Positions 2,154 through 25,116 of a DNA stretch of 31,952 nucleotides are shown in pieces. The notes below the pieces were generated by a model. The model saw only the letters and a list, made by a program, of their open reading frames with translations. It made no database searches and had not been told where the DNA came from. The DNA comes from a virus, in the IMG/VR virus record IMGVR_UViG_3300037086_000036, positions 1-31,952 of that record. One strand, written 5' to 3'. A program made the translations under genes and the position numbers. How positions within the stretch are numbered: position 1 is the stretch's first letter; every line of letters begins with the position of its first letter.

Positions 2154-3650
2154 ATGACTAACCCGGCCCGGCCTAACATACTTCAGTTCTGGAAGATACG
2201 ACGTCTCAATCGGCGCGAGCCCTGCGAGATTCGTCCATTCCACAAACAGATAGGCCGTGCTCTTACAGAACTAGTAATGGGAACCATGAGCCGTCCCAAT
2301 CTAATGATACTTATGCCGCCCCGCTGTGCCAAGACAGATCTGGGCGTACGCACGTTCGTACCGTGGGCGATGAGCAGTTTCCCGGACTCAGAGTTCATAA
2401 CCAGTTCATACGGTGCCGACCTTGCGGTTGATTCAGCCATTGATATACGGAACACGTTGTCGTCAGACTGGTATCGTTCTATGGTTGACAAGACATGGGG
2501 AGCCCACGTAGAGATGCGGGGGGAGAAGGGCGGTGGCCGTCAAGACTACTTCTACACTGAGGAGAAGGGGTCAGTAAAAGCAACAGGTCGTGGTGGCGCA
2601 ATAACAGGATTCGGTGCCGGGAAGCTGAGACCAGAGTTCGGCGGCTGCATCATCATGGACGACATGCTCAAGGCGCAGGAGGCCCGTAGCCCCGCCGCAC
2701 GCAAGGAGGCCGTCGCTTATTATACGGGCACATTGAAAACCCGCCGTAATAGGCTTGAGGCCCCTAAGACTCCGATGGTGCTTATTATGCAGCGGCTCCA
2801 CGTCGAAGACCTCGCCGGTTATATATTACGTGAGGAACGAGACGAATGGCAGGTACTTCAAATCGAAGCACACAACGAAACAGAAACCTGCTGGCCCGGG
2901 CGTATAGGCATGGACGAGATGTTGACCATGCGGGAACAGGCCCCGGACGACTATTGGCCACAATACATGCAAAACCCGAAGGCCTCCGCAGGAATAATGT
3001 TCAAGCGGGAGTACTGGAAATATTGGCAGGACATCAACAAAGTCAACAAACTGATAACGCTCAAGATAATAACAGCGGATACAGCGTTCAAGACAGAGGA
3101 TGCGAACGACTGGAGTGTGTTCCAATGCTGGGGCTTGACCACCTGGGGCATGATATTGATAGATCAGGTGCGTGCCAAGATGGAGTTCCCGGAGTTGGTG
3201 CAAGCGGCCAAAGACTTCTGGGATAAGCATAGCAGGAAGACGTCAATACACATAACCCCGGCCTCAGAGTTCTGGGTGGAAGACAAAGCGTCCGGCCAGA
3301 GTCTGGTACAAGTGCTACGGCGCGAGTCAATACCGGCCCGGGCATGGACCCCGGACGAGAGCATGAAGGCAAACAAGAACAAGAAGTCGGTAGCCATTGG
3401 GGTAATGGCAAGCACGGACAAAGTTGGGCGAGGCAATCAGTGCACCATGCCGCTCTCAGCCGGGCGCATCATTATCCCAGATCCAAAGCTTCCTGATTAC
3501 AAGTGGGTGGAGGGATTTATAGCAGAGCACGAAGCGTTTACAAAAGACGACAGTCATCTACATGACGACCAGGTGGACACCTTTACAGAGGCCTGCATTA
3601 TATGGCAGGCCCGGGGAGGCGGAGCCGGGGTCGTTCCAGCATATAATTGA
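2154..3650 (+). CDS. terL: Terminase large subunit
   Basis: This is the ATP-driven packaging motor and nuclease that fills the prohead through the portal. The ATPase domain shows a Walker A-like 'PPRCAKT' at residues 55-61, with Ala where Gly is usual, and a Walker B-like 'CIIMDD' at 165-170. The RNase H-fold nuclease domain starts near residue 303 with 'IITADTAFK' (Asp309) and ends with 'HLHDDQVDTFTEA' (Asp471/472/475), where the metal-binding acids are expected. The length of 498 aa is normal. The gene starts one base after the preceding stop and its end overlaps an alternative TTG start of the next frame. Best-supported call of the packaging block. Confidence 0.93.
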   Translation: MTNPARPNILQFWKIRRLNRREPCEIRPFHKQIGRALTELVMGTMSRPNLMILMPPRCAKTDLGVRTFVPWAMSSFPDSEFITSSYGADLAVDSAIDIRNTLSSDWYRSMVDKTWGAHVEMRGEKGGGRQDYFYTEEKGSVKATGRGGAITGFGAGKLRPEFGGCIIMDDMLKAQEARSPAARKEAVAYYTGTLKTRRNRLEAPKTPMVLIMQRLHVEDLAGYILREERDEWQVLQIEAHNETETCWPGRIGMDEMLTMREQAPDDYWPQYMQNPKASAGIMFKREYWKYWQDINKVNKLITLKIITADTAFKTEDANDWSVFQCWGLTTWGMILIDQVRAKMEFPELVQAAKDFWDKHSRKTSIHITPASEFWVEDKASGQSLVQVLRRESIPARAWTPDESMKANKNKKSVAIGVMASTDKVGRGNQCTMPLSAGRIIIPDPKLPDYKWVEGFIAEHEAFTKDDSHLHDDQVDTFTEACIIWQARGGGAGVVPAYN

Positions 3651-3673
3651 GAGAGCAGGGGCGGGGGTTGACT

Positions 3674-4504
3674 ATGGATATCTTCGATCGTGCACAGGAG
3701 GGGGCATTAGCGTTAACAGAACAGGCTGTAAACACTTTCTTGAGACGACCACGATTGATGGTGTCACAATTTATATGCAGGGATTGTGGATATGAAATAG
3801 AAGACTCCCGGGTTGAAGCATGCCGGGAGCAGCGGATAAACATTGTACGTTGTATGACGTGTCAAACAAAACATGAGAAGAAAGAGAAGGAGAATAGACT
3901 TATGAAAAAGATATGTAGTTCAGTTTCGAGAGGATTTGTAGTTTTGTTGCTGTCCTTGGTGATGCTTGCCACGGCCCCGGGCCTTGCGCTTGCGGTAGAC
4001 CACGTTGCTGGCACATGCATACAGACGCTAACGCAGTATGGGATTAGCGCAAGCATGTCGGTGGGTAACCCAATCGTCAGTCTCAAGTTTACATGCACAG
4101 CAGACAACGAAGATGGCACTATACCCAATCAGACCGTTACGACGGCCAACATGAATAAGTTGAAAGGTCAGTATTTCCTCTATCTTGTATCAGCTTATCC
4201 AGTAACGGGGGAGAGTGCAGTGGCACCAGACGCAGCGGATGTTCTCATATTAGACGCCGCAGGTTTTGACTTGTTAGGAAGCACCGATGGTTCTACGGCA
4301 GTGAAGGGAGCCGGATTGATAGACGCAACGTTGAAGAAGACGGTAGCACCTTATCTGTCATCGGCTCCTGCATGGTACTTTCCACCTATTATGAGTACGC
4401 TTACGCTCGTGGTGTCAGGACAGGCCACGCACAGCGCAACATACGTAGTTGAATTAACATTCGGGAAGTTTGGCGGGTTTATTCCTGTCAGCCTTCCTCA
4501 ATAA
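3674..4504 (+). CDS. DksA/TraR-type zinc-finger protein, fused in frame to a secreted protein
   Basis: Residues 1-72 from ATG 3674 look like the small DksA/TraR C4 zinc-finger proteins common in phages: 'MDIFDRAQ' start, then Cys35, Cys38, Cys60 and Cys63 (CRDC...CMTC) with the 'CQTKHEKK' ending. Such proteins bind RNA polymerase and alter transcription. Here no stop codon follows; the frame runs straight into a signal-peptide protein beginning at 3902. Full-length translation would give 276 aa with the hydrophobic segment as an internal membrane anchor. ATG 3674 has a G-rich site (GGGGG) upstream; a TTG at 3647 in the same frame is less likely. Confidence 0.7.
   Translation: MDIFDRAQEGALALTEQAVNTFLRRPRLMVSQFICRDCGYEIEDSRVEACREQRINIVRCMTCQTKHEKKEKENRLMKKICSSVSRGFVVLLLSLVMLATAPGLALAVDHVAGTCIQTLTQYGISASMSVGNPIVSLKFTCTADNEDGTIPNQTVTTANMNKLKGQYFLYLVSAYPVTGESAVAPDAADVLILDAAGFDLLGSTDGSTAVKGAGLIDATLKKTVAPYLSSAPAWYFPPIMSTLTLVVSGQATHSATYVVELTFGKFGGFIPVSLPQ
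3902..4504 (+). CDS. Putative secreted phage structural-type protein (internal start)
   Basis: ATG 3902 has a strong AAGGAG site (3887-3892) nine bases upstream, so this 200-aa product is probably made independently of the upstream zinc-finger domain. Residues 1-31 form a classic Sec signal peptide ending ALA before VDH. The mature part has the pattern of a family I associate with phage virion proteins: an initial 'GTCIQTLTQYG', a central 'ADVLILDAAGFDLLG', and a C-terminal beta pair 'LTLVVSGQ...YVVELTFG'. The family resemblance is by eye and moderate. Signal peptides are unusual for virion proteins made in the cytoplasm. Confidence 0.65.
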   Translation: MKKICSSVSRGFVVLLLSLVMLATAPGLALAVDHVAGTCIQTLTQYGISASMSVGNPIVSLKFTCTADNEDGTIPNQTVTTANMNKLKGQYFLYLVSAYPVTGESAVAPDAADVLILDAAGFDLLGSTDGSTAVKGAGLIDATLKKTVAPYLSSAPAWYFPPIMSTLTLVVSGQATHSATYVVELTFGKFGGFIPVSLPQ

Positions 4505-4515
4505 TGAAATAATCG

Positions 4516-4545
4516 AAGGAGTCATCGCATAAGGAGGCATCGCAT
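4516..4545 (+). repeat. Tandem 15-bp duplication of a ribosome binding site
   Basis: AAGGAGTCATCGCAT (4516-4530) is followed at once by AAGGAGGCATCGCAT (4531-4545), one base different. Both copies hold AAGGAG; only the second is placed correctly for ATG 4544, which lies at its end. Confidence 0.85.
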
Positions 4546-6727
4546 GAAGAAGTTATCCGCAATACTTTTATTTATTGTCCTTGCGCTTTCTGGCTGGGTC
4601 GGGTCTGCTCTTGGCACAAGCGTATATTCCTTTACGGCATTGACTGGCGGTGGAGCGGGTGCCCTTGACAGACTAAAGACACCTGCCGGGGTTACGATAG
4701 CACCCGTAACTGGAGATACGGCGATGGGGGTTGTCGGTGGAAAACCGTATTTCTATACCTACAACTCCACGTGCTCAACACCCACCAGTTCTCCAACCAC
4801 CATACGCCCTACGAGTAACATTGGTTGTTGGACTCATGCCTCTGAACTAGAAAACGGAACGGTCAACTACATCACATACTGGACGGGGCTGCATACGCTG
4901 GGTGCGATTCAACTAACCCCGAACAGGGCGTTAGGGACAAACGCAAGCGGCCTGCCTGTTGCAATTACCGGGCAGGCGTTTGGAGATTCCCTTCCGTTGC
5001 TCTACAACGTGTCGGCTCCCACAAAGTTAGGCCAATTTGACTTATCGGCTGTTACCGCAGGAAATACAAGAAAGATGTACTGGAGGGATAAAGACTTCAC
5101 TCCAGTAGACCTCGCAGGCGACACGTTCACCGGAAAGATAACGACAGTTGCGTCTGCTACAGGGGGAGCAGGTTTTAATCTGCCCCACGGCACAGTTCCT
5201 TCCAGTCCCAATGACGGTGATTTGTGGACTACGACATCCGGTTTGTATGCGAGGATTAATGGAAGTACGGTTGGGCCCTTCTCATCGACTCCCACATGTA
5301 CGGCGACAATACCAACGTTTACAGCGGTTACCGGCGCAGGACTTTCCACAGAAGAGACGAGCAATACCGTAACAGTTTCGATAACAAATTGCGCCAACGC
5401 TACGATATCGATTGCAGGGAACTCTGGCCAATACAAAATCAACTCAGGAAGCTATACAGCGTCCCCTGCATTGTTAGCTACTGGAGACTCCGTTACTGTC
5501 AAACAAACAAGCAGCGGATCGTATAGTACGGAGACTACATCCACATTAACGGTTGCCAGTCAAAGTCAGGCATACAACGTTACGACTGGCGGTTGCTCCG
5601 CATCGATACCCACCTTCACAGCGGTCACAGATTCTGCAACAAGTACGGTTAATGAAAGCAATACTGTTACAATGGCTCTTACCGGATGCTCTGCCGGGGC
5701 TCCGATATCCATTGCGGGCAACAGCGGACAGTACAAGATTAATTCGGGTAGCTATACGGCAAGTGCAGGGACGGTAGCAAATGGAGACTCGGTCAAGGTC
5801 AAACAGACATCCAGCGGAAGTGCTGATACCCTTACGACCACGACTCTTACGGTTGCTGGTTCTACGCAGCCTTATAACGTGACTACGGCGGGTTGTTCCG
5901 CATCCATTCCAACATTCACCGCCGTGACGGGGGCTACAACGGCAACTGAGTATACAAGCAATACGGTAACAGTCACCTTGACTAATTGTCCATCAGGAGC
6001 GGCAATATCGATAGCCGGGAACAGCGGATTATACAAAATAAACTCTGGTTCATATACGGCAAGTGCGGGAACAGTAGCGAACGGAGATTCCGTTACGGTC
6101 AAACAAACCTCCAGCGGGAGCGGGGGCACAAAAACAACAACCACCTTAACGGTTGCTGCCGCAACACAGGGGTATGATGTAACAACATCACAATCCGCCA
6201 ACGCAACGTGGAGTGGTGACACAGAACTAGAGCAAATATCACCAGGGTCTTGCCATTATTCTCTAAATCCTATGTTAATAGCTGATATAACAGGTGTGAA
6301 TTATCATATTTTAATAAAAGCAGATGCATCAGCTTGGAGCGGGACAATTAGTTTAGCAAAACTTTATATGTATTGGGTGAATACTGGCTATACGCATACT
6401 GGAGCAGCAGTTCAAGCATGTAAATTAACAAGAGCGTATGTAAATAATGAAGCGACTTGGAATAGTTATTCAACGGGAAACGCATGGACTACTCCTGGCG
6501 GTGATTACGTGTCAAGCAATCCGTCCTGTGGGTCTGCAAATGTAATTTCTAGCGCAGGTTGGATGAATTGGGATGTGACTGCTATCGTTCAGGACGCTAT
6601 TACGAATAACAGCGGTATTGTGAATATACTAATTAAATATACAACAGAGAATGGAGCATCTTATTCAGAATCATTTAATTCTGACAATGCGACATCCAAC
6701 AAACCATATTTAGCTATTACGCAATAA
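4544..6727 (+). CDS. Secreted tail-fibre/adhesin-like protein with three Ig-like repeats and a DNRLRE-like domain
   Basis: This 727-aa protein probably binds a surface ligand. Residues 1-24 are a Sec signal peptide. Residues ~180-247 match a segment typical of phage tail fibres ('LAGDTFTGK', 'ATGGAGFNLPHG', 'GDLWTTTSGLYARI'). Three near-identical ~99-aa beta-rich repeats follow, beginning at Cys252, Cys351 and Cys451. The C-terminus (~552-727) resembles a DNRLRE domain, seen in bacterial surface proteins, with an 'EATWNSY' core and an 'NWDVTAIVQ' motif. A tail-fibre segment together with a signal peptide is unusual: it may be a fibre, or a protein displayed on the infected cell. The DNRLRE part is visibly AT-richer than the repeats. 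Confidence 0.75.
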   Translation: MKKLSAILLFIVLALSGWVGSALGTSVYSFTALTGGGAGALDRLKTPAGVTIAPVTGDTAMGVVGGKPYFYTYNSTCSTPTSSPTTIRPTSNIGCWTHASELENGTVNYITYWTGLHTLGAIQLTPNRALGTNASGLPVAITGQAFGDSLPLLYNVSAPTKLGQFDLSAVTAGNTRKMYWRDKDFTPVDLAGDTFTGKITTVASATGGAGFNLPHGTVPSSPNDGDLWTTTSGLYARINGSTVGPFSSTPTCTATIPTFTAVTGAGLSTEETSNTVTVSITNCANATISIAGNSGQYKINSGSYTASPALLATGDSVTVKQTSSGSYSTETTSTLTVASQSQAYNVTTGGCSASIPTFTAVTDSATSTVNESNTVTMALTGCSAGAPISIAGNSGQYKINSGSYTASAGTVANGDSVKVKQTSSGSADTLTTTTLTVAGSTQPYNVTTAGCSASIPTFTAVTGATTATEYTSNTVTVTLTNCPSGAAISIAGNSGLYKINSGSYTASAGTVANGDSVTVKQTSSGSGGTKTTTTLTVAAATQGYDVTTSQSANATWSGDTELEQISPGSCHYSLNPMLIADITGVNYHILIKADASAWSGTISLAKLYMYWVNTGYTHTGAAVQACKLTRAYVNNEATWNSYSTGNAWTTPGGDYVSSNPSCGSANVISSAGWMNWDVTAIVQDAITNNSGIVNILIKYTTENGASYSESFNSDNATSNKPYLAITQ
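5297..6190 (+). repeat. Three tandem coding repeats of about 297-300 bp
   Basis: Units start at 5297, 5594 and 5894, each opening with a Cys codon followed by 'IPTFTAVT' and ending near 'YNVTT' or 'YDVTT'. All share 'SIAGNSG', 'YKINSGSYTAS' and 'VKQTSSGS'. Synonymous differences between units indicate an old duplication kept at the protein level. Confidence 0.9.
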
Positions 6728-6735
6728 GGAAGAAC

Positions 6736-6786
6736 ATGAAAAAAATAAAAGAACCGATAGACTTTGTTGTAGGAGAGAATAGATGA
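6736..6786 (+). CDS. Possible 16-codon leader peptide
   Basis: A tiny open frame starts at ATG 6736, preceded by AAGGA (6726-6730), and its TGA overlaps the ATG of the SGNH hydrolase gene at 6783 (ATGA). The peptide would be basic at its start and then hydrophobic. It could couple or limit translation of the next gene, or be the remnant of a lost gene. There is no independent support. Confidence 0.3.
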   Translation: MKKIKEPIDFVVGENR

Positions 6787-8228
6787 AGAAAACTCTCCTT
6801 ACTGTTCTGTCTATTTTAATTATTTTATTGCCTTCATATAGTTTTGCCACTGTGGATATTCTCATTGCCGGAGATAGCATAGCAGAGGGCTTATGCGGCT
6901 ATTGCGGCCCGAATGCTCCTAATGATTATGTTTATGTTTATAGTCAAACCTGCACTTCCTGCCCATGTGGAGACACGACATCACAAATAGGATATTGGCT
7001 CACCTATTATTTAGGGGGAAGTCATACTTATTACAATGCCGGAATAGGTGCGACAAACTCTAGTCAGTGGGTTGGTTGGATTGACGCTTTGCTCTCAACA
7101 CATCATCCAACGAGAACGTACTTTCAGATCGGAACAAATGATTTGGGAGGAGGTATAACATGGTCTGCCTTTCAAACAAACTTAAATTCTATTCTGGCAA
7201 AAGTTACGGCCGCGGGTTCTATTTTAATCGTATTTGAACTTCCCCCAAATTCGGATTTGTACCCTTCCGCTGGTGCGCCGACAACTTGGAACTCTAATTT
7301 GCATTCATGGGGAACTACCAATGGTGTACCGATTGTTAGTGTTTATACGACTCTCGTTGACGGTGTAGCCAATGCCTGCCCCACCAAATACTTTTGGTCA
7401 ACGGGAAGTGGTTGCCCCTGCCATCCTAACTCTGATGGGTACAAAGTTATGGGTCAGGCAGCAGCAGAAGCATTACCGTGGGATACAACTCCGCCTGCAG
7501 TCACTATCACTCAATCAAGTCCACAGGCAATCAATTCCGACACGATCACCCTTACAGGTACGACATCGGATGCTGTTGGCGTATCGGGCAATAAAATAAG
7601 AATCGGTTCTCTACCTGACGATACGCATGGGACTGTTTGCACCGGAACGACAACATGGTCATGTACGATTACCGGATTTAGTTCAGGTGCGAATATTGTT
7701 TATATAAGTGGCTACGATGCGGCTGGAAATTATACGCAGACAGCAAATAATATTACGGTGAATTACCCTTACGTTTACCCAACAATCAACGGCGAATGCG
7801 GCCCGGCCAACGGCACATATTCCTATACAACGCCCACGGCAAATCTTTGTTCTATGGGGACAGCCTCTATTGTAACGCTTGCGAACAATCTCTATTCATA
7901 CTCCTGCGTGGGAAGCGGCGGCGGCACCACAGCATCCTGTTCTGTGCATCAATCCGTTGACGGTGTTTGCGGTTCTGCAAATGGTGGCTCGTTTAATAGC
8001 ACGCCAACAACGGGACTGTGCTCTGTGGGCACAGCATCCACGGTATCCTTGATAGACACCGTATATTCTTGGACGTGCTCTCCGGTGGGGCAGGGCGTTG
8101 CGGGGAGCTGTACTGCAACCTTGTTGCCGGAGAACGCTTGCTGCGCCCCGATTGCAATCGGAAGCGGCTACGCTCCGTCAATAACAGGCAGCGGTTATGC
8201 GCCTTCAATCATTACTATATCACCGTAA
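6783..8228 (+). CDS. Secreted SGNH/GDSL hydrolase with Ig-like and Cys-rich repeats
   Basis: A Sec signal peptide (residues 1-22) precedes an SGNH-family catalytic domain: block I 'IAGDSIAEG' with Ser32, block II around Gly87-Gly89, block III 'GTND' (117-120) and block V 'HPNSDGY' with His214. The Asp normally three residues before that His is Cys211 here, so the acid of the triad may be absent or supplied elsewhere. An Ig-like domain (~236-330) and two ~55-aa repeats of the 'GxCG..NG' type with conserved cysteines follow, then a short duplicated 'GSGYAPSI' tail. Likely an esterase acting on acetylated surface sugars, exported or virion-bound; the substrate is unknown. Confidence 0.78.
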   Translation: MKKTLLTVLSILIILLPSYSFATVDILIAGDSIAEGLCGYCGPNAPNDYVYVYSQTCTSCPCGDTTSQIGYWLTYYLGGSHTYYNAGIGATNSSQWVGWIDALLSTHHPTRTYFQIGTNDLGGGITWSAFQTNLNSILAKVTAAGSILIVFELPPNSDLYPSAGAPTTWNSNLHSWGTTNGVPIVSVYTTLVDGVANACPTKYFWSTGSGCPCHPNSDGYKVMGQAAAEALPWDTTPPAVTITQSSPQAINSDTITLTGTTSDAVGVSGNKIRIGSLPDDTHGTVCTGTTTWSCTITGFSSGANIVYISGYDAAGNYTQTANNITVNYPYVYPTINGECGPANGTYSYTTPTANLCSMGTASIVTLANNLYSYSCVGSGGGTTASCSVHQSVDGVCGSANGGSFNSTPTTGLCSVGTASTVSLIDTVYSWTCSPVGQGVAGSCTATLLPENACCAPIAIGSGYAPSITGSGYAPSIITISP

Positions 8229-10997: not shown

Positions 10998-13900
10998 ATG
11001 GAAAGAACAATTGGACCGCAGCTAACCGTAAATCAGGCACGCATGAGATCTCACAACAGGATGATGAACTCCACGTTCACAGGTTCCGGGGCGCAAGAAG
11101 CCGGGGACAGAGGCGCATGGCAAAGCATCCCGATGTATTCCTCCAACCCATACGACTCCAACGACTACGTATACCGTTGGAGACAATACGTGCACATGTA
11201 CGAGCTCTCATGGGAAGCCCGCAAGATTGTACGCATCCCGGTAGAAGACGCACTCAGAAAACAATGGATTGCAGAGGGCATAGAGGAAGAAATGGCTCAG
11301 GGCATAGAAACCCGGTTGAAGCAGATCAACTTCCTGCACGTGCTGTCCCGTAGTCTCATGCTCGAGCGTCTCCTTGGTGGCTGTCTTACTTTCATGGGAC
11401 TGGAGAGCAGGGAAGACGATACGCTCATTCCCTACAAGCCCTCTGAGGGTTCCCGGCTGCGGTTCTGTAACGCGATTCCCATCAGTAGAATCTCTCGTAT
11501 GACATGGGACACCAACCCGTTGAGCGAGAGTTATATGCGGCCCAACAGGTATCTCGTAAACGGAGTGGGGTTACATACATCTCGTTGTTTGGTATGGGAC
11601 GGAGAACCGTTGTTCGACCCCTATGACTTCGCCCTTACAAACTTCCGTTCAAACCTGGCGGGATTCGGGCCGAGTAAACTCGCTCCTATCTGGGACGACA
11701 TTGAAAAGGCTGTGGGGACTCGTCAAGCGGCATACCAACTCATTCAAACGAACAACGCGATAATAGCTGCCATTACAGGGTTACAAGACCTTGCCGGGGT
11801 AAAGGGCGGGGCAGCGAGTGTGCGCAAACTAAAAGAGCTAGTAAACAGCATTAGCGTGTATCGTGCTGCATTAATAGACGGCGAGCGGGTAAACATAACA
11901 CAGAGCGCAGCTTCTTTTGGCTCTGTCCCGGAACTGATAATCACATTCATTCAGATTCTCTCTGCCGCTTCCGACATCCCGGCCACACGCTTCATTGGTC
12001 AAGCCCCGGGCGGCCTGAACGCCACGGGTCAGAGCGACCTGGAGAACTACTACAATGTGATCGACAGTTTCCAAGTCCAACGTATCGAGCCTGCGCTGCG
12101 CCGCGTATACGACATTCATGGGTACGAAATGTACAAGGATAGGTGGAGAGCCCAGCGTCTCAAACTTACATTCAAATTCCCGCCGCTCTGGAATCTTACA
12201 GAGTTGCAGGAAGGCGAGCGTGCTGCGAAGATGATTGAGAATGTAATGAAGATGCGAGACGCCAATCTGATGACTGATAAACACATCATCGAAGAGCTGA
12301 ATCAGAAAGAAGCCTTTAGTATCAAGTTAGATCAAACGGACTTGAATGTAGTCGATGACACCGATTTGGGGATCGGCACGCCCAACGGCGGCCCCGGGCC
12401 ATTCGGAGCCCCTCAGCCGCCGAAGCCCGGCGCAGGAGAGGAACATGCCGACACAAGCAAAACGACGCCGGGAGATGGCGGCAGCAAAACGGCAGGCAAT
12501 GTGGCAGAGCAGCGAGGTGCTGGTGGCCCCCCGAATCCTCAGGGGCCTTCGAACCCTTCCGGCTCTATTCAACGTCTTCGCAATGTCCATTACATAAAGA
12601 ATGCAGACGCTACGTCCCTCTTGATTGGTGCTGCCGGGGGAGACCCGGAACGCACAGATCGTGAACAGTTTATGAAGGGGCTCGCCATAGAACAAGAACA
12701 CTACGATACTGCTCATGGGGATGAGTTGATATTGGCGAAAATAGTTCTCGATCATCTTTCAGAAGACCTTGAGTATTACATCAAGCTCGAACAATATGTT
12801 GAGAACATGGTTATTGAGAACATGGTTATTGAGAATTTCGTTGAAAAGCGGGGGGACAAGTGGGTTGTTCTTTCTCACGATAAGTCCAAGACACTGGGCG
12901 AATACGATTCAGAGGGAGAGGCCAACAAACGCCTTCGTCAGATAGAGTATTTCAAACACGAAAACTCTTCCTTTACCTCTCACGCAGAAAAGGTGTTTGC
13001 AGATCTCTATCCACAAACGGACGGGGTTTTTAAAGAGTCGTGGTTGTCCGGGTATTGCGGGCATGCGCCGACGGCCCCCAGAGACTCAATCGCCGGACAG
13101 TGGTACGAGAAGGGGAAGGAGTATAAGCTGACGAAAAGTACAATGCCTATTGAGAACGAACTTCCCCTACCAACAGCAGAAAACGTAACAGAGAGGCAAG
13201 CAAAGAATCTCCATGTGGGCGATTTGGTAGTTACTGGTTCTGGAGGGTATACAGAAATTGTTGATATAGTACACCAATCGGACGAAACCGGTGGCTTCTA
13301 TTTGGTTAAAATGGCAGATGGGAATAAGAAAATGCTCACGTCCCCAACAAAAACAATGATTGTGTCTAAGTTAAAGAACTCAATCTACCTTCCTCACCTC
13401 CATCCAGGCCCCACACAACCACAGCGGCACGCAGGGAATTACAAGATGCATCATCTACATCTACATGGACTGGACTTCTCCATAGAGAACCCGTGGGGTT
13501 CTGAACGTTCCGGGGTCGACAAAGATGGGAACTCTTGGAGTTCTATTCTCCCGGCGCACTATGGATACGTACGTAAAACCGTGGGGGCCGACGGACAACA
13601 CGTCGACGCATACATAGGCCCGTTTGAAGATTCAGAACTTGTGTTTGTAGTAGACCAGAACGACGCCGATACCGGTGCCTTCGACGAGCACAAGTGTATA
13701 TTCGGTGCGCTGTCAGTTACCCAAGCCAAAGAGTTGTATCTCAAGGGATTCGGAGACGGGAGGGGTGTTCAGAGGTTGGGCTCGATCACTCCGATGACAG
13801 TCGACGGATTCAAACAATGGCTCAAGGAAGGCGATACTACGAAGCCGTACGCCAACTCCCAAAAATACCGTGTTGCTTTTGATATTGACGGAAAGGTGTA

Positions 13901-14120
13901 TGAAGGAAGGGCCGGGGAAATTCATGCTCAATTACTTGCCCGCCTACCAGAAAATGTTCAAGATAAGTACTATGGTGATTCTGGTCGTCAGGGATTTATG
14001 TCTGGGTTTGTTGATGAACGAGGTGACTTTCAAACTCGAGGAGATATAGAAATGCGAACGGGGAAAGTGCCCAACATAGAGTTCCTCAACTCCGAGAAAG
14101 CAATGGTTCGCACCAAGTAA
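10998..14120 (+). CDS. Portal protein (DUF1073) fused to DUF5661-like and pyrophosphatase-like modules
   Basis: Residues ~15-440 are a DUF1073 portal: the 'NPYDSNDYVYRWRQYV' start, 'ARKIVRIPVEDALR', 'SDIPATRFIGQAPGGLNATG' and 'WNLTELQEGERA' are characteristic. The portal is the ring through which DNA enters the head. A Pro/Gly-rich linker (~450-525) leads to a DUF5661-like segment (~541-600), a 'LGEYDSEGEANKRLRQIEYFKH' module (~633-655), an RMF-like 'SWLSGYCG' stretch (~680-690), then a domain (~821-948) resembling the inorganic-pyrophosphatase-like (InPase) module of phage polyvalent proteins ('SIENPWGSERSGVD', 'HYGYVRKT', 'FDEHKCIFG'). The final ~90 residues are unknown. At 1040 aa it is about twice the usual portal length. 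Its start has AAAGGAAA upstream. Confidence 0.88.
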   Translation: MERTIGPQLTVNQARMRSHNRMMNSTFTGSGAQEAGDRGAWQSIPMYSSNPYDSNDYVYRWRQYVHMYELSWEARKIVRIPVEDALRKQWIAEGIEEEMAQGIETRLKQINFLHVLSRSLMLERLLGGCLTFMGLESREDDTLIPYKPSEGSRLRFCNAIPISRISRMTWDTNPLSESYMRPNRYLVNGVGLHTSRCLVWDGEPLFDPYDFALTNFRSNLAGFGPSKLAPIWDDIEKAVGTRQAAYQLIQTNNAIIAAITGLQDLAGVKGGAASVRKLKELVNSISVYRAALIDGERVNITQSAASFGSVPELIITFIQILSAASDIPATRFIGQAPGGLNATGQSDLENYYNVIDSFQVQRIEPALRRVYDIHGYEMYKDRWRAQRLKLTFKFPPLWNLTELQEGERAAKMIENVMKMRDANLMTDKHIIEELNQKEAFSIKLDQTDLNVVDDTDLGIGTPNGGPGPFGAPQPPKPGAGEEHADTSKTTPGDGGSKTAGNVAEQRGAGGPPNPQGPSNPSGSIQRLRNVHYIKNADATSLLIGAAGGDPERTDREQFMKGLAIEQEHYDTAHGDELILAKIVLDHLSEDLEYYIKLEQYVENMVIENMVIENFVEKRGDKWVVLSHDKSKTLGEYDSEGEANKRLRQIEYFKHENSSFTSHAEKVFADLYPQTDGVFKESWLSGYCGHAPTAPRDSIAGQWYEKGKEYKLTKSTMPIENELPLPTAENVTERQAKNLHVGDLVVTGSGGYTEIVDIVHQSDETGGFYLVKMADGNKKMLTSPTKTMIVSKLKNSIYLPHLHPGPTQPQRHAGNYKMHHLHLHGLDFSIENPWGSERSGVDKDGNSWSSILPAHYGYVRKTVGADGQHVDAYIGPFEDSELVFVVDQNDADTGAFDEHKCIFGALSVTQAKELYLKGFGDGRGVQRLGSITPMTVDGFKQWLKEGDTTKPYANSQKYRVAFDIDGKVYEGRAGEIHAQLLARLPENVQDKYYGDSGRQGFMSGFVDERGDFQTRGDIEMRTGKVPNIEFLNSEKAMVRTK
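12801..12830 (+). repeat. Tandem 15-bp repeat within the portal fusion
   Basis: GAGAACATGGTTATT occurs twice in a row and a third partial copy follows, encoding repeated 'ENMVI' in the linker after the DUF5661-like segment. It is in frame, so it only lengthens the linker. Confidence 0.85.
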
Positions 14121-14433: not shown

Positions 14434-15348
14434 ATGCCGATCATTCTTGATGAGAAATCTTTGAGCCGCATGCGCCGGGGCGTCCGTGCGAAACGCCTCA
14501 AAATAGCTCCTCCGAAAACGAAGGCCGAGCGTGAACTTTTCAAACGTATGAATCTTCTCTGGAACGAAGTGCTGTTCCCGGCTACGGAACGTATTCAGAA
14601 GATGGTTGACGAAAATGCCCCGGCAGAGGATGTAGCCGATTTGATAGAAGAGGTGCTGCGGGAGGCACAGGATGCCTACAGAATAGTATCGGATGACATC
14701 ATCTGGCGTTGGCGGGCCTCTATGGACGGGGACACCCGGGCAGCATTCACATCCGGGCTGCGCACTTCCTTAGGAGTAGACATCAGTGCATTCGTGGACA
14801 CCCCGGAAATGCAACTTGTACTACAGGGAGCCACATTAGAAGCTTCTCAACTGATAAAGACAATCCCCGGGGACTACCTAGGTGCGGTAGCAGAAGCGGT
14901 GGCCGATAATTACGTAGGCAAGCCCCTCCCGGAAGGGCGAAGTCTTCTGGACCAAATACAACATCTTGGGGATGTTTCTCAAAACAGGGCGAAGTTGATA
15001 GCACGTGACCAGACAAACAAATTGGTGGGTAGCGTTAATCAAGCCCGGCAGCAGTCCATTGGAATCGAGACGTATCGTTGGCGTACAGTACGCGACCAGC
15101 GTGTCGTGGGCCGCCCCGGGGGTCGCTATCCAGAAGGAAACAAGGTACACGGCAACCACTACAAAATGGAGGGGATGCTCTGCAAGTGGGACGACTCCAC
15201 AAAACTGTCGCGTGACGGCGGAGCTACGTGGGTACGTAGGGATGCGGACATGCCGCAGACGCATCCGGGGCAAGATATTCAATGCCGTTGTCACCCAGAA
15301 CCGGTTATAGACGTTAAAAAGATTCTTAAATTTGCTCAACAGTTATAA
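14434..15348 (+). CDS. Head morphogenesis protein (Mu gpF/SPP1 gp7-like minor head protein)
   Basis: This minor head protein usually sits on or near the portal and helps head assembly or DNA ejection. The C-terminal half has the hallmark pattern: 'AKLIARDQTNKLVGSVNQAR', then 'YRWRTVRDQRV', His residues in 'VHGNHYKMEG', and the closing 'HPGQDIQCRCHPEPVI' Cys/His segment. The N-terminal half is helical. It follows the portal gene, as in other phages. GAGGT lies before ATG 14434. Confidence 0.85.
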   Translation: MPIILDEKSLSRMRRGVRAKRLKIAPPKTKAERELFKRMNLLWNEVLFPATERIQKMVDENAPAEDVADLIEEVLREAQDAYRIVSDDIIWRWRASMDGDTRAAFTSGLRTSLGVDISAFVDTPEMQLVLQGATLEASQLIKTIPGDYLGAVAEAVADNYVGKPLPEGRSLLDQIQHLGDVSQNRAKLIARDQTNKLVGSVNQARQQSIGIETYRWRTVRDQRVVGRPGGRYPEGNKVHGNHYKMEGMLCKWDDSTKLSRDGGATWVRRDADMPQTHPGQDIQCRCHPEPVIDVKKILKFAQQL

Positions 15349-15432: not shown

Positions 15433-16650
15433 ATGAAAATAGTAAACCTACAGTCCGCAGATGGACAGCCTGTACACTGGGAAGAAACACCCGAAGGATT
15501 CCTCCGCAGCCGTATGCGTGTTCTTCGTTCTTGCGTCATGCCTTACGACCTCTCTGAGCTGGAAGGTGCCCCGGAAGGGGCACCCAACCCAGTAATGATG
15601 TATGTCAGCATGGACAGTATGACAAGCCCGGAGAGTTTGCGCTCGCTTGAAGGCGTTCCAATAGTAGCATGGGATCACGCTTGGATTACCCTTGAGGGTG
15701 TTAAAGTTGTGTCTAAAGGCAATGTTGCCGGGGCACCACTTGTCGTCGGCCCATTCTTAGAGATAGACTTGTTGGTTACAGACGCTCAAACGATTCAGGA
15801 TATAAAGGATAGAAAGATAGGGGAGGTTTCGGCGGCTTACAATGCGCAGAGCATTTTTGAGTCCGGGGAGCATGACGGAGAACGCTATGATGCGCGACAA
15901 ACACAAATCCGTTACAACCATATAGCAATCATACCAGAGGGACGAGGGCGTGCAGGGTTTGATGTACGCATACTCAACGAAAAATCTAAAGAAGGAGATG
16001 AGTCTATGGCAACAGTTAAGGTAAAACTCCGTAATGGCAAGTATATCAATACGGACGAAGACGGCGCAGCAGTGGTAGCAGATGATACAACGGCTACCGA
16101 AACTAAGGAAGTGGGAAGCGGGAAGCAACTAGAAGACCTCATGGCCCAATGTGAAGATCTCAAGGCTGCCAAAGCGGAGAGCGATGCTCAGTTGGAAGAA
16201 GTCCGGGGCGAATTGAGTGTATACAAAGAGAAGCTCGATCAGTTGCTCTCGGAAGAGACAATCGAGGCCGCCGCCGGTGAGATGAATGCGGAGCAGGGCG
16301 AGGCATCGGAGATTCTCGAAAACAGCACGTTAGTTGACGACAAAGGCAAGGAAGTTACCGAGGACGCCGAGAAGGACAAGATTAAGAACAGCATCAAGGC
16401 TCTTCACGGCCAGAAGCTGCATTCGGCTGTTCTCTCGAGCATCGGCGTGAAATGCGAAAACATGTCCCCGGAAGCTCTGCGTGGTGCGTTCCATGCCCAG
16501 CACCAGGTTCTCAACACCTTAGGCGGGGCCGGGCGCAAAGTGGTGGCGGGCACCAAACTGATGAACAGCACGGTCGCAAAGGACGGTCAGGTCATTACGA
16601 CCACCCAGCGTTCCGGGCACGACCGCTTAGGCATAAAGAAAGCGGTGTAA
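15433..16650 (+). CDS. Prohead protease fused to scaffold (DUF2213-like)
   Basis: Residues ~1-180 resemble DUF2213 prohead proteases, which trim scaffold and capsid proteins during head maturation. His82 in 'AWDHAWIT' and Ser133 in 'GEVSAAYNA' are spaced as the catalytic His and Ser of HK97-type proteases, and 'YNHIAIIPEGRGRAGFDV' (161-178) is the conserved end of the fold. Residues ~225-275 form a charged coiled coil and the rest is acidic and helical, as expected of a scaffold. AAGGAAG precedes the start. The capsid gene lies downstream. A separate scaffold may start within the gene at 16006. Confidence 0.83.
   Translation: MKIVNLQSADGQPVHWEETPEGFLRSRMRVLRSCVMPYDLSELEGAPEGAPNPVMMYVSMDSMTSPESLRSLEGVPIVAWDHAWITLEGVKVVSKGNVAGAPLVVGPFLEIDLLVTDAQTIQDIKDRKIGEVSAAYNAQSIFESGEHDGERYDARQTQIRYNHIAIIPEGRGRAGFDVRILNEKSKEGDESMATVKVKLRNGKYINTDEDGAAVVADDTTATETKEVGSGKQLEDLMAQCEDLKAAKAESDAQLEEVRGELSVYKEKLDQLLSEETIEAAAGEMNAEQGEASEILENSTLVDDKGKEVTEDAEKDKIKNSIKALHGQKLHSAVLSSIGVKCENMSPEALRGAFHAQHQVLNTLGGAGRKVVAGTKLMNSTVAKDGQVITTTQRSGHDRLGIKKAV
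16006..16650 (+). CDS. Nested scaffold protein (internal in-frame start)
   Basis: ATG 16006 (residue 192 of the protease gene) has AAGGAG at 15992-15997, eight bases upstream, as good a site as those of separate genes here. It would yield a 214-aa protein holding only the coiled-coil and acidic tail, the same arrangement as phage lambda C/Nu3, where the scaffold is translated from inside the protease gene. The site lies just after the protease fold ends, which supports it. Confidence 0.55.
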   Translation: MATVKVKLRNGKYINTDEDGAAVVADDTTATETKEVGSGKQLEDLMAQCEDLKAAKAESDAQLEEVRGELSVYKEKLDQLLSEETIEAAAGEMNAEQGEASEILENSTLVDDKGKEVTEDAEKDKIKNSIKALHGQKLHSAVLSSIGVKCENMSPEALRGAFHAQHQVLNTLGGAGRKVVAGTKLMNSTVAKDGQVITTTQRSGHDRLGIKKAV

Positions 16651-19937: not shown

Positions 19938-20366
19938 ATGGCGGAGCAGTTAATATTTTCGGAGAAGGGGTACAAGATCTTTAAAACGGATGGAAGGTTC
20001 TTTATTCAGCTCCCCGGTAAGTCTGCATCAAGTGTTGATAGTGGCTTGCGAAAGAATGGTTTCGATACCTTAGATGAGGCACGCACTGTTCTTACTGATC
20101 AAATGAAGAAAGATGGCGTCTACGGTGTCGGCTCCTTCGGTAACGCCTTCTCCAACGGACGTGTCCGTGCGATGAATGCCATTGCAGAGAAGTTGGGCGG
20201 ACGGTATGGGAATGACTTTGGGAGTACCATGAGGGATACAAACTGGAGAGAAGGCAAACGAGCGAAGTCGGACGGGGAGAAAAAAGAAGCCTGTCCGTAT
20301 CCGAAAGACAGTACAGCAGGAAGTTGTTGGCTGGCTGGGTATGAAGGAAGGCCATGTCCCGTATAG
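19938..20366 (+). CDS. Small protein with 'FSNGRVRA' motif and RMF-like C-terminus
   Basis: Residues ~71-90 carry the 'FSNGRVRA...AEKLGGRY' motif shared with four other genes here. The C-terminus (~103-137) has the spacing of ribosome modulation factor and CrpP-type proteins: 'WREGKRA' (103-109), Gly113, 'CPY' (119-121) and 'CWLAGYEG' (130-137). RMF binds and silences 70S ribosomes in starved cells; whether this does so is unknown. The N-terminus (1-50) is beta-rich. Its end overlaps the next gene by 13 bp. The resemblance is by eye. Confidence 0.6.
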   Translation: MAEQLIFSEKGYKIFKTDGRFFIQLPGKSASSVDSGLRKNGFDTLDEARTVLTDQMKKDGVYGVGSFGNAFSNGRVRAMNAIAEKLGGRYGNDFGSTMRDTNWREGKRAKSDGEKKEACPYPKDSTAGSCWLAGYEGRPCPV

Positions 20367-21840: not shown

Positions 21841-22266
21841 ATGGCATTGAAAAGAATCAACGGAGATTTATCAGCTTGGAAGCGGGCACTTCCACGAGAT
21901 ACTTCTGGAATAGATTCCACCCACCCAAAATACTCGTATGCTTACCGCATGGGGAAGAACGGGCGGGAGGATTTTGGTACATATTATCACGAAAGTCAGT
22001 ATGGAGAGTTTGAGGAAAACAAACCGTTTGAGAACGGACGTCTCCGTGCCCAGAATGAAATCAACAACAAGTTGATGAATTTGGGGATTAAAGTACGCAA
22101 TGATAAATCAACTGCAGAGTATTGGGATGATGTTTTGAATTTTGGGGTTAAAATCAGTATTCTTGAGTCCCTGCGACTTTCAAGCCATGTAGATGAATAT
22201 GCAAAATCAGATTTTAAAGACTTACCTTCTGATGTGCAAAGTAAACTAAAACAAAAGTTAGGATAA
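21841..22266 (+). CDS. Small protein with 'FENGRLRA' motif, 141 aa
   Basis: Residues 63-85 hold 'FENGRLRAQNEINNKLMNLG' followed by IKV, strikingly like 'GRQKAENYINARMQNLG' with MKV in the gene at 24790. 'EYWDDVLNFG' follows (93-102), matching the end of the 21209 product. The N-terminus (1-60) is polar and Tyr-rich; the C-terminus is helical. The stop overlaps the next start (TAATG). Function unknown; it lies between two neck genes. Confidence 0.6.
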   Translation: MALKRINGDLSAWKRALPRDTSGIDSTHPKYSYAYRMGKNGREDFGTYYHESQYGEFEENKPFENGRLRAQNEINNKLMNLGIKVRNDKSTAEYWDDVLNFGVKISILESLRLSSHVDEYAKSDFKDLPSDVQSKLKQKLG

Positions 22267-24789: not shown

Positions 24790-25116
24790 ATGCAGAGAAC
24801 TCGCTTTCAAATAAGAAACGAAGCAATACCGGGTGCGGCGGATGACAAAGCCGCAGAAAGCAAAACGGCCCCGAAAGACATAGGCCGACAAAAGGCGGAG
24901 AACTACATCAATGCTCGGATGCAAAATCTGGGAATGAAAGTAAAGAATGCAGAAACACCAGAAGGTGCTTCGTTCAGAAAAGAATTTCCTAAAATTGCAT
25001 ACGATTCGGGTAAGGAAACAAAGAAAAAAGGTATTGGGCGCGATAGGAATCCGTTCCACCCTACTCGTGGGAAAGACGAATACGATGCGTGGCACAAAGG
25101 ATACGACGAAGGTTAG
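24790..25116 (+). CDS. RMF/CrpP-like small protein with 'GRQKAENYIN' motif
   Basis: Residues 32-51 carry the shared small-protein motif (closest to the 21841 product). Residues ~70-108 match the ribosome modulation factor pattern well: 'AYDSGKETKKKG' (70-81), 'NPF' (87-89) and a closing 'AWHKGYDEG' (100-108). The protein is 108 aa and rich in Lys and Asp. It sits between the sheath and tube genes. Possible roles are binding ribosomes after injection, or a tail part; neither is shown. Confidence 0.65.
   Translation: MQRTRFQIRNEAIPGAADDKAAESKTAPKDIGRQKAENYINARMQNLGMKVKNAETPEGASFRKEFPKIAYDSGKETKKKGIGRDRNPFHPTRGKDEYDAWHKGYDEG

Follow-up and report, generated by a model that had tools for sequence, protein, structure and literature searches.

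The window analysed here, an entire IMG/VR record of 31,952 bases, holds an intact 1040-aa reading frame (10998-14120, + strand) in which a phage portal continues for about 600 residues beyond its portal part (tail, residues ~438-1040). The initial annotation placed the tail at 12310-14120, which fits these residues, and read the protein as a portal joined to a polyvalent-type InPase, both of which score above their Pfam gathering cut-offs.

Architecture of the portal fusion ORF

The ORF, like all features located below, is on the + strand. It opens with a basic leader (residues 1-24; 10998-11069) ending in the candidate cleavage site RMMN/S, a motif conserved before the portal core across the family. 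The portal domain (residues 63-416; 11184-12245) matches Phage_portal_3/DUF1073 (PF06381; E 2.2e-50, 171.8 bits against a cut-off of 33.8, profile positions 2-355 of 357) and aligns with the solved portals 8hds, 9b41 and 8fvh; PHROGs give the same verdict (phrog_146, E 1.9e-63), and a related NCBIfam model scores below its cut-off. A Pro/Gly-rich linker (residues 453-525; 12354-12572), gapped in relatives, leads to the relaxed candidate site RLRN/V (12573-12587) at the portal-DUF5661 junction, where most relatives carry [KR]L[RKM]N. DUF5661, which had been proposed for this tail, follows at residues 551-599 (12648-12794; PF18905, E 4.4e-9, 37 bits against 27) and is helical in the structural model (pLDDT about 95). 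Beyond it lie the KW..EYFKH module (residues 621-654; 12858-12959), modelled as three strands and a helix with pLDDT 91-97, a variable slot (residues 655-790; 12960-13367) without a family match above cut-off and differing among relatives, and the strict candidate site KLKN/S (13368-13382; cleavage predicted after residue 794) directly before the InPase domain (residues 809-943; 13422-13826; PF18823, E 1.3e-45, 155 bits against 26.8). The last 85 residues (956-1040; 13863-14117), for which no relative was found in the phage collection or in IMG/VR, contain the relaxed candidate site EFLN/S (14079-14093).

Structure prediction of the tail, a check suggested at the outset, yielded a pyrophosphatase fold for InPase and confident models of DUF5661 and the EYFKH module, and the tail model is good for these three parts only; the slot and the C-terminus, which lack alignment depth, are poorly modelled and were barely probed by the structural search. 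Altogether, the protein combines two or more unrelated domains in a gene beside head and packaging genes, as polyvalent proteins do. The orphan C-terminal segment, the EYFKH module and the putative protease sites were absent from the initial annotation.

Several smaller features accompany these modules. Directly after DUF5661 (12795-12839) stands a near-perfect short repeat, YVENM-VIENM-VIENF. The EYFKH module, ~35 aa with the pattern KW.VL..KTLGEYDS..A.KRLRQIEYFKH, recurs in unrelated phage proteins (L044:3001-3108; L043:3001-3126; the L051 portal C-terminus), its contexts being a portal tail, the end of a gene annotated as RNA ligase in RB43-like phages and the start of a lysozyme-like ORF.

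The RMF-like segment once assigned to the portal protein had to be dropped: RMF (PF04957) gave no Pfam match at E<=1 on the portal or on the tail alone, and the stretch so read falls in the variable slot, where model confidence is mostly low. Weak RMF likeness, in each case short of the curated cut-off, was found only in a separate window ORF (19938-20366; E 1.1e-5) and in the tail insert of the relative L006 (E 1.3e-3). The former is one of four small ORFs (1736-2152, 19938-20366, 21841-22266 and 24790-25116) with a common short NGR..A...N.KL-like stretch, two of which end in a weakly RMF-like segment that stays under the cut-off (E 1.1e-5 and 0.11).

The InPase fold was confirmed by structural comparison: inorganic pyrophosphatases fill the first 50 rows from Foldseek and each of the 50 rows from VIA-align (Z up to 6.5). 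Asp67 of E. coli PPase, which in classical PPases binds metal and probably acts as the general base, and Asp54 of the M. tuberculosis enzyme align with Gln867 of the window protein, a position occupied by Asp in 23 of 28 homologues and by Glu in another four. Because Gln867 stands at this catalytic position, the activity of the window InPase is uncertain, and it may be weak or inactive. That the domain is a degenerate, catalytically dead passenger, as the lost Asp would suggest, nevertheless seems somewhat unlikely, given that the reading frame is intact and that the other conserved active-site positions, Glu830, Tyr855, Asp865, Asp870, Asp896 and Lys899, are all kept. With regard to a complete set of acidic metal-binding residues, five of six positions examined are preserved, Gln867 standing in for the Asp67 equivalent.

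Downstream of the portal ORF lie a MuF-like head protein (14434-15348) and a DUF2213 head maturation protease, one half of which is scaffold (15433-16650; Pfam E 1.1e-32; PHROG 530, E 5e-44); the scaffold half contains two candidate self-cleavage sites, KIKN/S (16378-16392) and KLMN/S (16555-16569). Upstream, in an unusual position between a terminase-like ORF and the portal (3647-8228), are large ORFs with signal-peptide-like stretches, one of which (6783-8228) appears SGNH-hydrolase-like by eye.

Exchangeable tails on related portals

A search based on the tail found eight further viruses with the portal-DUF5661-InPase arrangement, and the portal-InPase fusion was present in 13 distinct relatives. 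Since the fusion recurs in independent contigs, an assembly error as its source was rejected. A search with the portal only added ten tails not chosen by their content, of which six carry DUF5661, five InPase, one topoisomerase IB only and two none of these. In about 20 IMG/VR viruses of the window's portal clade, tails are swappable (DUF5661, InPase, topoisomerase IB and others); of 24 portals examined from the sister clade, the majority are about 440-550 aa long, in agreement with the expectation that DUF1073 portals end near 450-550. The portal tail is thus a site of module exchange between related viruses. A search of genome contigs returned only two distant InPase proteins, and the 769 phage records found by search are not a count of portal-InPase fusions because matches to the EYFKH module are included.

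The stretch between DUF5661 and InPase also varies by virus: it is absent in L007 and L015, contains long charged stretches in L054 and appears Zn-ribbon-like by eye in L064. The insert of L003, ART-like by eye, was set aside, as no family reached its cut-off. In the portal ORF of L009/L053 the tail frame is broken between DUF5661 and InPase, by decay or sequencing error.

A type IB topoisomerase domain (PF01028; E 2.5e-15 to 2e-24) is carried by three portals belonging to two portal clades (ORFs of L018 from 1908, L058 from 2234 and L090 from 2), and the TGFRVGGE and SYIDP motifs are readable in the L018 and L058 sequences. Literature searches gave no relevant report of a portal-topoisomerase fusion. 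Tail modules are often opened by a sequence resembling [FW]-x-E-x-x-H-x-R-x-x-D-G-[KR]-F, seen in the portal extensions of L074 and L090 and in the tails of L018, L052 and L058; in L074 it directly follows a strict N/A motif and in L090 a similar motif. This sequence may be a cargo tag.

Tail position and a candidate head-protease motif

The fusion of a portal with InPase is not new, because Iyer et al. (2017) reported it in BcepF1 (PMC5512222). They also proposed that InPase fusions are injected, with pyrophosphate clearance or a nucleotide signal as the target (PMC5512222), so that the central idea of a portal and InPase delivered with DNA is already published. The same two Pfam families, portal and InPase, occur in the portal of Bcepfunavirus Maja, and a PDB sequence search matched the Pa193 portal gp19 (9b41, 765 aa), in which the same InPase occupies residues 633-763. 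E217 gp19 was built for residues 97-528 of 765 (PMC10329688); in Pa193, density was missing for residues 529-765 and LC-MS detected nothing of the first 93 residues (PMC11042391).

By sequence profile, on which the mapping onto solved portals rests, the portal clade of the window matches Pam3 (E 4.9e-39) and, more remotely, Pa193 and E217 (E about 1e-11), and its portal part ends ahead of the barrel, at about Pa193 residue 472; the portal's own AlphaFold model was discarded (mean pLDDT 45.7). The C-terminal barrel of the E217 portal reaches into the head and keeps its fold only as long as the capsid is full of DNA (PMC10329688). By homology, therefore, the tail would enter the head lumen, and the cargo should lie there around the portal mouth. 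Effectors had initially been placed at the DNA exit; their link to the portal stands, whereas the exact place is better given as the lumen, given that the E217 barrel points into the head (PMC10329688, PMC11042391).

A tail in the lumen could simply stay tethered, with InPase and DUF5661 serving as structural or packaging aids in the head and not as injected effectors. The InPase of E217 and Pa193 belongs to the C-terminus unseen in cryo-EM, and a flexible tethered domain would look identical; in addition, distantly related portals carry InPase, which points to a role tied to the portal. Permanent tethering is nonetheless considered unlikely, since InPase and DUF5661 can be missing or exchanged among members of the clade, unlike a packaging component, and a protease-type motif stands at module boundaries.

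This motif, [KR]-hydrophobic-x-N/[AS], is 9-12 times as frequent as expected in three places: ahead of the portal core, at the borders of tail modules and in the DUF2213 scaffold half. It was spotted by eye, first in tail linkers and then in the protease scaffold half, and, being post hoc, was therefore tested unchanged on new sequences. Across the first nine viruses, 8 strict motifs were counted in tails and another 8 ahead of the portal core, against expectations of 0.53 and 0.14; unrelated InPase polyvalent proteins were at background (5 vs 4.8 expected). In held-out sequences, without refitting, the motif was found 6 times in portal N-termini (0.25 expected), 6 times in tails (0.57 expected) and 30 times in the scaffold halves of 40 proteases (3.0 expected), with a small excess in the first 180 residues of the held-out proteases (6 vs 1.3). 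MuF proteins, the control family of the downstream neighbour, showed no clear enrichment (2 observed vs 3.6 expected), nor did capsid (3 vs 1.8) and terminase (3 vs 3.2) proteins. As related sequences inflate such counts and shuffles ignore relatedness, an effect addressed only by the held-out sets and a P1 control, Asn was also replaced by every other residue in turn, which preserves relatedness. In this control set (tails, 12 vs 0.97 expected; scaffold halves, 31 vs 3.4), Asn was the most enriched of the 20 P1 residues in tails, the next reaching 3.8-fold, and it alone reached 9-12-fold in all three contexts, where the next residue reached 3.4-3.9-fold.

The five held-out tail motifs outside topoisomerase are all at module edges. 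In the window, the strict sites outside the portal core are N24 and N794 only, and the portal-DUF5661 and DUF5661-insert boundaries carry the relaxed motif only. A relaxed form ([LIVFMY]xN[SATVMG]) was rejected as a criterion, as it does not discriminate between linkers and domains (1.41 vs 1.07 per 100 aa); the stricter motif alone does. The strict motif is also present in the folded portal core (8 vs 1.0-1.3 expected), including one conserved RF[CF]NA site, and two tail motifs fall within topoisomerase domains, so that sequence alone does not decide cutting; KLGN/[AS] in L018 and L058, part of the topoisomerase fold, was set aside as a cleavage site.

These occurrences in folded domains, together with the failure of the relaxed form, would also suit a motif that reflects the structure or composition of linkers and of coiled segments in the scaffold, on a fusion that extends the portal in an ordinary way and serves no special purpose. 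Such an explanation appears improbable: the strict form is Asn-specific at P1, there is no excess in MuF, capsid, terminase or unrelated polyvalent proteins, and the tail contains a conserved enzyme fold. By computation, the motif is common to the portal and to the protease's own scaffold region, as would be expected of a head-protease substrate, and the putative cleavage of the portal tail gains computational support. Literature searches for an Asn-specific head protease gave nothing relevant.

Proposed mechanism and comparison with known systems

The preferred reading, to which a probability of roughly 0.55 is assigned, is that the portal tail is head-lumen cargo clipped by the DUF2213 protease, the freed modules staying in the head and leaving with the DNA. 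The portal C-terminus would serve as the carrier and, because the enzymes are translated as part of the portal, about 12 copies would enter each head, a number taken from portal biology. DUF5661, the variable insert and the InPase-like enzyme would lie on the lumen side of the portal, as homology with E217 and Pa193 suggests. During head maturation, the co-encoded protease probably cuts at [KR]-hydrophobic-x-Asn/[Ala,Ser]; as predicted from the motif, it would trim the portal N-terminus, destroy its own scaffold half and clip the tail into free modules. These would remain in the head, exit with the DNA and, at an early stage of infection, act on pyrophosphate or on a nucleotide signal, as hypothesized in print for such domains. 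Precedents for the proposed trimming and ejection are found in giant-phage portals, which lose long N-terminal propeptides to the head protease (PMC5694885), and in P1 DarA, which is trimmed by the head protease and ejected from the head with DNA (PMC12810830). The further proposal that the portal C-terminus acts as a dedicated cargo bay with exchangeable contents, supplying ~12 enzyme copies per head that are released by DUF2213 at the motif and ejected with the DNA, is tentative and given less than even odds.

If true, this mechanism would be a simple rule by which a phage head is loaded with a fixed number of effector copies that need no targeting signal of their own; it could account for the unseen InPase part of the E217 and Pa193 portals and would offer, for DUF2213 head proteases, a cleavage motif open to testing. 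Among uncultured phages, the swapped tails, portal-topoisomerase IB fusions included, are a place to look for early-infection effectors. As far as checked, what is new is the exchangeable tail and the candidate protease sites common to portal and protease; this kind of fusion is known.

The closest counterparts are the portals of Pbunavirus and Bcepfunavirus (E217 and Pa193 gp19, BcepF1.124 and Maja), which likewise join a DUF1073-family portal to a C-terminal PF18823 InPase, although their portal domains are remote in sequence from that of the window, and neither DUF5661 nor slot modules were seen on the Maja portal, whose linkers also contain no strict N/[AS] site. The polyvalent proteins of Iyer et al. 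(2017), in which a portal or MuF is combined with PBECR, 2H or InPase, similarly unite several unrelated domains in a head/packaging gene setting. Unlike them, the window protein has a complete portal as carrier and a short tail in which no embedded peptidase was seen; the enzyme that likely processes it is a head protease encoded separately. The predicted cleavage resembles that of the phiKZ and SPN3US portals, T4 Alt and IPs, and P1 DarA, in which a short motif is paired with a co-encoded head protease. However, the known cuts in T4, phiKZ and SPN3US fall after Glu and remove N-terminal propeptides, whereas the window motif ends in Asn and is predicted to release C-terminal modules as well.
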